DNA of 64,000 nt from an uncultured Bacteroidales bacterium (lineage in GTDB: Bacteria; Bacteroidota; Bacteroidia; Bacteroidales; UBA932), in NCBI GenBank assembly GCA_900316955.1, contig ONEX01000017.1:1-64000 (forward strand), written 5' to 3'. The notes below the pieces were generated by a model. That model saw only the letters and a program-made list of their open reading frames with translations. It was not told where the DNA came from and made no database searches. Position 1 is the stretch's first letter, and each line of letters starts with the position of its first letter. Positions 304-61,270 of the stretch are shown one piece after another. The position numbers and the translations under genes were made by a program.

Positions 304-488
304 GAAGAGGGATGTGAAGACAGAGGGTGCTTGTACCGGTCCAATCCGTGGACCTGTACGAGCATTCCTCTTCTTTCCAACGAACTATTACCTTTTCAGG
401 AGGATTTTTCAAAATCAGGGATAGTCCCAGGGGTAGTGAATATCCAAAAACTGCCAATTTCGGCTTTATTTTACCTCGTTTTTGGCAT

Positions 489-59806: not shown

Positions 59807-59840
59807 AAAAGTGTAAAACACCCCGTTTTACACTTTTTTT
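59807..59840 (+). terminator. upp terminator and first REP-like palindrome
   Basis: AAAAGTGTAAAAC (59807-59819) pairs perfectly with GTTTTACACTTTT (59825-59837) around a five-base loop, followed by a T-run. It shares its sequence with the other palindromes of the array, so a repeat unit seems to serve as terminator. Confidence 0.85.
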
Positions 59841-59986
59841 TCTGCCCCCGCCCCCAAAAAGTGCAGATTGACCCGATTCGCACTTTTTCCTGTGCCGCTG
59901 GCTAAAATAAGGGTGAATCGACCCGTTTCACACTTATCTCCGCACTCTCGGCCAGAATAAGGGCAAGATAGACCGTCCTTATGGCC
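59807..59986. repeat. REP-like palindrome array, left flank
   Basis: Four related palindromes: 59807-59837, 59856-59888 (AAAAAGTGC/GCACTTTTT), 59907-59937 (ATAAGGGTGAA/TTCACACTTAT, one mismatch) and 59957-59982 (ATAAGG/CCTTAT inside flanking GGCC). GC-rich spacers of about 14-20 bases separate them. The region 59782-60164 has no gene. The stretch after the array up to 60164 is A-rich, with short repeats (AATCATAAG). Confidence 0.75.
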
Positions 59987-60131
59987 GATTGATCGGTCAA
60001 GGGGAGTATTCCGGGCTGAATTTTCCTCTAGCCAGCGATGAGAATCGTAAGAAAAGCGCAAAGAATCATAAGAATCATAAAAAACGTACTGAAACAACGT
60101 CCGAACCGCTTGCTGACCGGATTGAATTGCC

Positions 60132-60139
60132 TAAGTTTG
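60132..60139 (+). promoter_or_regulatory. Candidate -7 box of the RAYT gene
   Basis: TAAGTTTG fits TAnnTTTG and lies about 25 bases before the ATG at 60165. No good -33 element is visible. Confidence 0.4.
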
Positions 60140-60164
60140 TGGGAGAACAGTCAGTTTTGCAGCG

Positions 60165-61124
60165 ATGGAACAGTACGTCAAATGGCCGCCTCCGACTGAG
60201 CGGCAGATCGAATGGATGCAGGAACAGTTGTTCCGCGAGTCCGGCCCTTTTTACCATCTCAGCACGAAGCCGCTCGAGGACGGGCTTATCTTTGAATGTG
60301 ATGAGGAGAGGAGGATTGCCTTCAACTTGATGGCCGTCACTGCGAAGGAGTTCCATATTGACATTCTCGCATTCGCATTGATGAGCAATCATTTCCACTT
60401 CATCATCCGGGGCGAGCTGGTCGACGGCCTGGCCTTCTTCCATCGCCTGAAGAAAAGGCTGTCGAACTACTTCGCGCGAAGGGGAAGGCCGGGTATACTG
60501 AATGCCGTCAATGTGGATCCGGATACGCCGGCCATCAGCAGCCTGACCCAATTTCGGAATGAAATTGCCTACGTCATCCGGAACCCTTATGTCGCCCGGA
60601 CTGATGTAAACCCTTTCGCTTATCCCTGGTGCAGTGGCTTTCTTTACTTCAATCCGCTCTTGGGCAGCCTGTCTTCCAAGAGCGTAAACGAACTGAGTTA
60701 CAAAGAGAAGAGGAGTATGACCCGGATGACGAACCCCATTCTGGATTCACAGTTTCGGGTCCGGGAAGGGATGATTGCCGCGGAGAGTTTCGTAAACTAC
60801 AAACTCGTGGAACAGCTGTTTCCCAGTGCGCGAAAGTTTACCTGGTGGGTGCTCAAGAATGTGGAGGCGCAGGTCGAGACCTCTGTGCGAATGGGCGAAA
60901 AGCCCAACCTGAATGATGACGAACTGTTCGTCACGGCCCAGCAACTGAGCCGGTCGGAGTATGGACGTGACAGTGTGAAGGAGTTGTCACTCCTGCAACG
61001 GAAAGAGTTGGGAATCTTGCTCAAGAACAAATGGGGCGCCTCCAACGGCCAGGTTGCCCGGATTGCGCAGCTGGACCCAAGGGCTGTCGATGCAATGTTT
61101 CCACTAACAGCCAAAAAAAGATAG
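60165..61124 (+). CDS. REP-associated (Y1) tyrosine transposase
   Basis: A 319-residue protein with a Y1-transposase (HUH) domain in its N-terminal half. The metal pair is in ALMSNHFHFIIRGE (His76 and His78), and the catalytic Tyr candidate is Tyr136 in EIAYVIRNPYVA. The remaining C-terminal half (about 180-319) is helical, ending with a helix-turn-helix-like segment (ILLKNKWGASNGQVARIAQL). Such single-copy RAYT proteins act on REP palindromes. Here palindromes of one family flank the gene on both sides. It is more AT-rich than neighbouring genes and has different codon use, suggesting horizontal origin. Confidence 0.85.
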   Translation: MEQYVKWPPPTERQIEWMQEQLFRESGPFYHLSTKPLEDGLIFECDEERRIAFNLMAVTAKEFHIDILAFALMSNHFHFIIRGELVDGLAFFHRLKKRLSNYFARRGRPGILNAVNVDPDTPAISSLTQFRNEIAYVIRNPYVARTDVNPFAYPWCSGFLYFNPLLGSLSSKSVNELSYKEKRSMTRMTNPILDSQFRVREGMIAAESFVNYKLVEQLFPSARKFTWWVLKNVEAQVETSVRMGEKPNLNDDELFVTAQQLSRSEYGRDSVKELSLLQRKELGILLKNKWGASNGQVARIAQLDPRAVDAMFPLTAKKR

Positions 61125-61139
61125 TCCTGTTCTCTGAAT

Positions 61140-61270
61140 AAGTGCAGAAACAGCCGTTTTACACTTCATTCGCGCAATCTGATCAAAAAAAGTGTGGTAA
61201 TTCCGGTTTCACACTTTTCTCCTGCCTCCGAGCCAGAATCTGTGCCAACAGAGGCATTTTACACTTTTTT
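61140..61270. repeat. REP-like palindrome array, right flank
   Basis: Three more units: 61140-61166 (AAGTGCAGAAAC/GTTTTACACTT), 61188-61218 (AAAAGTGTG/CACACTTTT) and a degenerate one at about 61236-61270 ending in ATTTTACACTTTTTT. The right half-site CCGTTTYACACTT is shared with the left array, and spacers such as CTCCTGCCTCCGAGCC resemble those on the left. Confidence 0.75.

Follow-up and report, generated by a model that had tools for sequence, protein, structure and literature searches.

The window analysed here, a stretch of 64,000 nucleotides from contig ONEX01000017.1 of an uncultured Bacteroidales bacterium, contains a HUH/Y1 transposase-like gene that is bracketed by two arrays of hairpins repeated every 50 bp. 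We consider it rather probable that both constitute a lineage-specific variant of the pairs formed by the REP-associated tyrosine transposases (RAYTs) and the repetitive extragenic palindromes (REPs), in which the enzyme would have its own hairpin family, organised in direct arrays with a 50-52-bp pitch, and of which many would coexist in one genome. This proposal rests on the pitch itself, on compensatory changes in the stems, on dispersed hairpin doublets that lack the gene, on differences in content between sister species and on a RAYT fold with its catalytic residues.

A common pitch with unrelated hairpins

A repeat search identified six 31-nt units around the gene (Table 1), with start-to-start distances of 50, 50, 1231, 50 and 50; four equal spacings were obtained in none of 200,000 random non-overlapping placements. 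Five of the clear units are 61-74% identical to unit 1, taken as reference, the 19-nt linker between units is partly conserved, and a 55-nt repeat family covers both hairpin repeat and linker. In addition, the motif TTYACACTT occurs six times in the window, versus 0.20 expected.

A similar pitch is found at homologous loci. The set examined comprised 47 of 52 protein loci, namely the 12 of the host genome and 35 of 40 fetched homologues, as five were dropped before any count (L044 for a short flank, L045 for a broken frame and L056-L058 for being partial). The flanks repeat themselves above 98% of shuffles in 35 of the 47 loci. Of these, 28 have their best lag at 50-53 or 100-104, compared with about one tenth expected by chance. 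By contrast, only 5 of 44 control regions located 950-1400 bp away were significant, one of them with a lag of 52. Counted by protein cluster, the pitch is present in 12 of 18 clusters at 60% identity and in 6 of 10 at 40%, and the hairpin sequences of distant loci appear unrelated. A stretch with at least 23 of 30 identities is common to the two flanks in 28 of the 47 loci, in direct orientation in 26 of them. A common spacing despite differing hairpin sequences suggests an enzyme that reads hairpin pairs at a fixed distance. Protein identity and flank similarity were also correlated in a Mantel-type test (rho 0.27, 0 of 2000 permutations), but we do not rely on this result because most of its signal comes from pairs with over 60% identity, in which the flanks may also have genes in common.

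Table 1. Features of the transposase locus (positions in the window).
Feature	Position	Strand	Remarks
Left array (J1), hairpin unit 1	59807..59837	+	Arms of 13 bp without mismatch; a T run follows
Left array, hairpin unit 2	59857..59887	+	Repeat search
Left array, hairpin unit 3	59907..59937	+	Repeat search
Left array, unit 4	59957..59987	+	Weak and degenerate, in 50-bp register; by eye, not among the repeats listed by the search
Transposase gene leader	60029..60164	+	Conservation between the host genome and its sister G041 far above that of the hairpins to its left
HUH/Y1 transposase-like gene, 319 aa	60165..61124	+	Motif H76-F77-H78, Y136, N140; RAYT fold aligned over residues 23-246; C-terminal part helical
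Right array (J2), hairpin unit 1	61138..61168	+	Repeat search
Right array, hairpin unit 2	61188..61218	+	Repeat search
Right array, hairpin unit 3	61238..61268	+	Repeat search; its own two arms now pair poorly

The preliminary description of this DNA had placed a Y1/HUH transposase gene between palindromes, and both are found where it put them. It had counted about seven related palindromes, of which six are clear and the seventh (59957) is weak and recognised by eye; where it gave spacers of about 14-20 bases, the linker is 19 nt, and the exact 50-bp pitch had been missed. The right half-site that all units were said to share, CCGTTTYACACTT, did not hold, as its exact form is present in only three of the six clear units. 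Another suggestion, that the first unit doubles as the upp terminator, fares better: unit 1 begins 26 bp after the upp stop and has a folding energy of -13.3 kcal/mol and, because of this fold, its nearness to the stop and the T run behind it, it could terminate upp, although in the sister species other DNA separates upp from the array. A CRISPR array was also considered and rejected, since the repeats are degenerate and the linkers alike (cas genes were not searched for). Among known RNA families, the only match was to ALIL, below threshold (14.3 of 50 bits).

A transposase with a RAYT fold

The window protein has an HUH motif and a single catalytic tyrosine in a Y-x-x-x-N context, and its best structural match is a RAYT. 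N75, H76, F77, Y136 and N140 are invariant across 35 homologues, and H78 is present in at least 90% of them. Entries for Thg1, YqeY, complex I and Cre among the structural matches were treated as matches to a common arrangement. Sequence models are less responsive: Pfam Y1_Tnp gives the window protein 18.8 bits, below its cut-off of 23, and is reached at E 0.05 by 17 of the 35 homologues. The C-terminus has no Pfam helix-turn-helix match and only weak fold matches, and a W/F-Q motif between HUH and Tyr was not seen by eye in the sequences inspected (no subclass hidden Markov model was applied). Additionally, a search of solved structures with the homologue alignment returned a single chance-level match, and PHROGs had no match for the protein. 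The deviating base composition noted beforehand was confirmed as a lower G+C (53.4%, with 68.8 at third codon positions) than that of four neighbouring genes (63-67% and 88-91, respectively).

Many enzyme-hairpin pairs in one genome

The window protein has 12 matches in its own genome, and the other 11 are 22-32% identical to it. As partial matches are also found at two contig ends (C38:5-358 and C5:5-355), this genome probably holds more than 12 RAYT-type genes. At 9 of the 12 loci (L007, L009-L014, L016 and L018), the two flanks match each other with 23 or more of 30 identities; at L015 and L017 the hairpins are mainly on one flank, and in the flanks of L008 none were seen.

When the array DNA of ten of these paralogues was used as a joined query, copies elsewhere were found for nine, the L010 type being the exception, and each of the nine types has at least one copy that either lies on a RAYT-less contig or is separated from the nearest RAYT match by over 19 kb (the L014 type is counted on the strength of a weak hit, E 5e-4). 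Many dispersed copies are complete doublets with a conserved linker and variable loops. For instance, among the matches listed, the gene-less copies of the window type with a pitch of 50-52 comprise a doublet at C23:89749-89829, a triplet at C20:107495-107627 and a doublet at C18:64941-65021 (junction J3, see below), together with a single copy at C20:67828. The palindromes are, thus, not confined to the window locus, which the preliminary description had set as a test.

Other arrangements were observed in passing. A lone gene-less hairpin of the type flanking paralogue L009 (contig C36) lies at window positions 327-366. At C20:107.5-107.95 kb (L081), three flavours stand side by side, an ATGTG triplet, a CATGAGCAAAA doublet and a GGGGCAAAA doublet (by eye); the stretch is also present in G041, and stems like these are found beside RAYTs in related genomes. 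At L086, arrays of the L011 paralogue enclose the transposase and, downstream of it, a short ORF (62 codons).

Stem covariation and distribution of the hairpins

The stem was analysed with an alignment of 47 units of the window clade (14 of 60 listed units were left out and unit 61238 was added). Its 12 pairs contain 49 doubly changed cells, versus 26.2 in shuffles, and have a covariation score of 0.231 versus 0.131, neither value being reached in 500 shuffles; pairing amounts to 79% and falls to 24-52% on sliding. A covariance model was then run on 24 genomes, counting both strands. The seven genomes with both the gene clade and the hairpin type have 29 (host genome), 35, 53, 14, 9, 102 and 10 matches, while fourteen same-genus genomes without a close gene (best homologue at most 45% identical; of 24 genomes of the genus, these fourteen were searched, together with the host) have 1, 10, 0, 0, 0, 0, 4, 0, 0, 21, 0, 2, 0 and 0. 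The difference (Mann-Whitney p 3e-4) is biased, as the model units came from the seven genomes and none from the fourteen. The palindromes are not equally common without the gene, the other outcome by which the preliminary description would have been refuted, although their restriction to genomes having it is incomplete.

Homologues of the protein are frequent in the genus, where 22 of 24 other genomes match it at E 0.001 (G002 and G013 do not). Of 119 genomes drawn across the order, 13 match the profile at E 1e-10, two of them in the genus (the host and G050). Among the other eleven the best has E 2e-15, and almost all of their matches are limited to the first half of the profile. Carriage by a plasmid or phage was rejected, as no record in either collection matched at E 1e-5.

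Several observations weigh against the proposed RAYT/REP-like pair. The best lag differs from the common pitch in 7 of the 35 significant loci, the GT[AG]G foot is found in none of the seven units, and the curated REP-transposase model NF047646 gives the protein 26.5 bits, far from its cut-off of 80. The copy number is low, with 29 matches in the host genome; three genomes with the gene clade have another stem and 7, 0 and 9 matches, and 5 of the 14 genomes without a close gene have some (e.g., 21 in G017, 10 in G003 and 4 in G012). The aligned units were chosen partly for pairing, and two of five stem measures stay at shuffle level (pairs with a double change, 338/500; pair types, 472/500). 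Finally, no excision or circle intermediate was seen in the assemblies, the only material used. The earlier idea of a RAYT with its own palindrome family is sustained by the fold, the covarying stem and the further copies, and weakened by the copy number, the missing GTAG/GTGG foot and the sub-cut-off score.

An alternative is that the arrays are no more than common short tandem repeats and terminators, which slippage during replication and homologous recombination would have spread, and that the transposase gene merely lies inside them. The arrays of G045 resemble a tandem expansion with local duplications (by eye), unit 1 is terminator-like and two stem measures do not exceed shuffles. We consider this explanation unlikely, as a near-equal pitch recurs across protein clusters with unrelated hairpins, the remaining stem measures are above all shuffles, gene-less copies are dispersed and the paralogues own distinct types.

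Differences between related genomes

Dispersed sites were compared between the host genome and G041 at seven sites of the former and two of the latter (w2, i9a, i9b and i13b were prepared but left out, w2 being seen conserved in G041; w3 is junction J3). At three sites (i12a, i12c and v1) a segment is inverted; the lengths are 873 bp, 2.33 kb and 2.27 kb, and one or both genomes have a doublet at an end of the inversion or no more than about 50 bp away from it. At three others (i12d, i11a and v2) the content differs: one host doublet has no counterpart in G041, with an imprecise empty site; G041:C45:68.4-69.8 kb (L173) carries a whole RAYT gene, 61% identical to L014 of the host, where the latter has an L011-type doublet; and one further site holds different contents. 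Sites w1, w4 and i12b gave no clear answer or are seemingly retained, and the C20 triplet is conserved.

The window locus itself is part of a block formed by upp, RAYT, miaB, an aquaporin gene and rpoN (the last two named by eye from their ends), which has three arrangements in nine genomes, the host and eight relatives; G047 was not scorable because of its short contigs. Arrangement A is found in the host, G041 and G045; in B (G042 and G049) the miaB-aquaporin segment is inverted, and in C (G043, G044, G046 and G048) it is inverted together with the RAYT. The changes are located at the intergenic junctions J1, J2 and J3, and at least three are needed on a four-gene core tree (counted by eye). 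J1 and J2 carry hairpins in all nine genomes and J3 in all seven genomes of A and C, but in neither of the two B genomes (by eye). Within a genome, the hairpin flavour agrees among junctions. For instance, the GTG core is preceded by A in 7 of 8 host units (excluding the degenerate 59957) and by T in 8 of 8 units of G041, with a matching change in the other arm. G046 and G048 have another stem at all three junctions. At L119, the arrays of J1 and J2 are much expanded, to about 10 and 15 units as counted by eye; they contain a local duplication and one unit with a 2-nt insertion. In G048 (contig C43, L121), the RAYT at the canonical locus is a remnant in two pieces, and this genome has another homologue of that clade (L026) at a different place.

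The ends of IS200/IS605 elements are hairpins in direct orientation. An insertion sequence of this kind, with multiplied hairpin ends on one strand and moving as a whole, would agree with the direct orientation of the arrays in 26 of 28 loci and with the RAYT gene that G041 has where the host has only a doublet of another type. This alternative seems improbable, as there is no near-identical second copy in the host, where the other matches reach only 22-32% identity, and the clade RAYT (broken in G048) occupies the same upp-miaB-rpoN block in nine genomes. Moreover, the protein is twice the median TnpA length of the IS200 type (152 aa in the table of PMC6006769), and its best fold match is a RAYT.

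A DNA inversion system, in which the enzyme or recombination between arrays flips segments bordered by hairpins, would account for block arrangements that differ by inversions ending at J1, J2 or J3 and for the three further inversions (0.87-2.33 kb) near doublets. It is nevertheless quite improbable: inversions are tolerated, and hairpins located, at intergenic 3′ ends, so the link may be indirect, the 2.33-kb breakpoint is 40-50 bp off a doublet present in both genomes, J3 lacks hairpins in arrangement B and, compared with J1 and J2, it fits better reversed in G041, forward in G045 and is tied or weak elsewhere.

The gene had also been proposed to be transferred. Between the host and G041, its synonymous divergence is 1.86, versus 0.12-0.22 in four neighbours, and between G042 and G045 it is 2.03 versus 0.18-0.33; by contrast, in the pairs G043-G044 and G042-G049 the RAYT resembles its neighbours. 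Along the host-G041 alignment, the identity dips at J1 and J2. It stays near 0.9 over the leader and the beginning of the gene, and lies mostly between 0.6 and 0.8 across the gene body. As the gene body is synonymously anomalous while its position is kept, these data fit, but do not prove, the replacement of RAYT alleles at a fixed place. The genes of the host and G041 nevertheless group as sisters in the gene tree, so that a close relative outside the sample would have been the donor. The two pairs that resemble their neighbours favour such a replacement over hypermutation of the gene, but less clearly so in view of that sister relationship.

A possible mechanism

The following model of the RAYT/REP-like pair is drawn by analogy with RAYT and IS200/IS605 systems. 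The HUH/Tyr protein would most likely act on single-stranded DNA, recognising folded hairpins of its own flavour, and cutting and joining at or near their feet. Its usual substrate would be two hairpins rather than a single one, kept at a constant spacing of 50-52 nt (a hairpin of about 30 nt plus a 20-nt linker) and probably held by a dimer. Doublet copies would be placed at other intergenic sites, and arrays would extend in steps of 50 nt. We infer that the enzyme cleaves these hairpins, acts as a dimer ruler and has moved the copies.

In a bolder version, which we regard as rather unlikely, the 50-52-nt pitch would be a ruler with which the RAYT dimer takes two hairpins on one strand, of any family, to insert, replace or invert intergenic DNA. 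New alleles would arrive at the fixed locus, and the enzyme would then convert hairpins elsewhere to its own flavour, all its sites in a genome switching together. The rearrangement sites, constantly rewritten in this way, would be shared among a dozen non-interfering enzymes per cell.

Known systems and significance

As in RAYT/TnpAREP systems with their REPs (REPtrons), the gene is flanked by palindromes with further copies elsewhere. By contrast, the window protein (about 320 aa) has an extra C-terminus when compared with that of E. coli (4er8), the hairpins have no GT[AG]G foot and low copy number, and the 50-52-bp pitch is common to many enzymes with unrelated hairpins. Canonical REPs exceed 100 copies per genome (PMC2817692), versus 29 matches in the host with both strands counted. 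In REPINs, a REP doublet is the dispersed unit, its spacing is fixed within a family (71 bp for GI) and tandem arrays are known (PMC3116915), all three features being shared here; however, 93% of REPIN doublets are inverted (PMC3116915), whereas here the arrays on either side of the gene have the same orientation in 26 of 28 loci, although near-symmetric hairpins do not settle the orientation inside doublets.

Among the TnpAY1 groups, subclass 2.1/TIRYT (PMC6006769) has a similarly longer protein with a C-terminal part, possibly helix-turn-helix, but no REP-like sequences were found near its genes (PMC6006769), whereas here there are conspicuous, directly oriented hairpin arrays instead of long terminal inverted repeats. 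Subclass 2.6 (PMC6006769) also comes from Bacteroidetes and has atypical secondary structures with copies elsewhere in the genome, but its median length is 179 aa and its motif YIH[QN]NP, compared with 319 aa and YVIRNP here. IS200/IS605 elements differ in that the host has no set of near-identical copies. Bacteroidales RAYTs with regularly spaced hairpins were not found reported in the literature covered, which did not include preprints and most subscription papers.

RAYT/REP pairs are seen as domesticated transposases whose benefit for the host is unknown, and the enzymes studied in vitro come from Proteobacteria (PMC8266576). Here, a single genome encodes some dozen enzymes that diverge from one another, nine or more of which have their own hairpin type, and sister species differ at many hairpin sites. 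As the pitch is conserved while the sequence is free, geometry is separated from sequence recognition, and both can be tested by swapping. Additionally, with one block in three arrangements among nine genomes, it can be asked whether small inversions are driven by such pairs.
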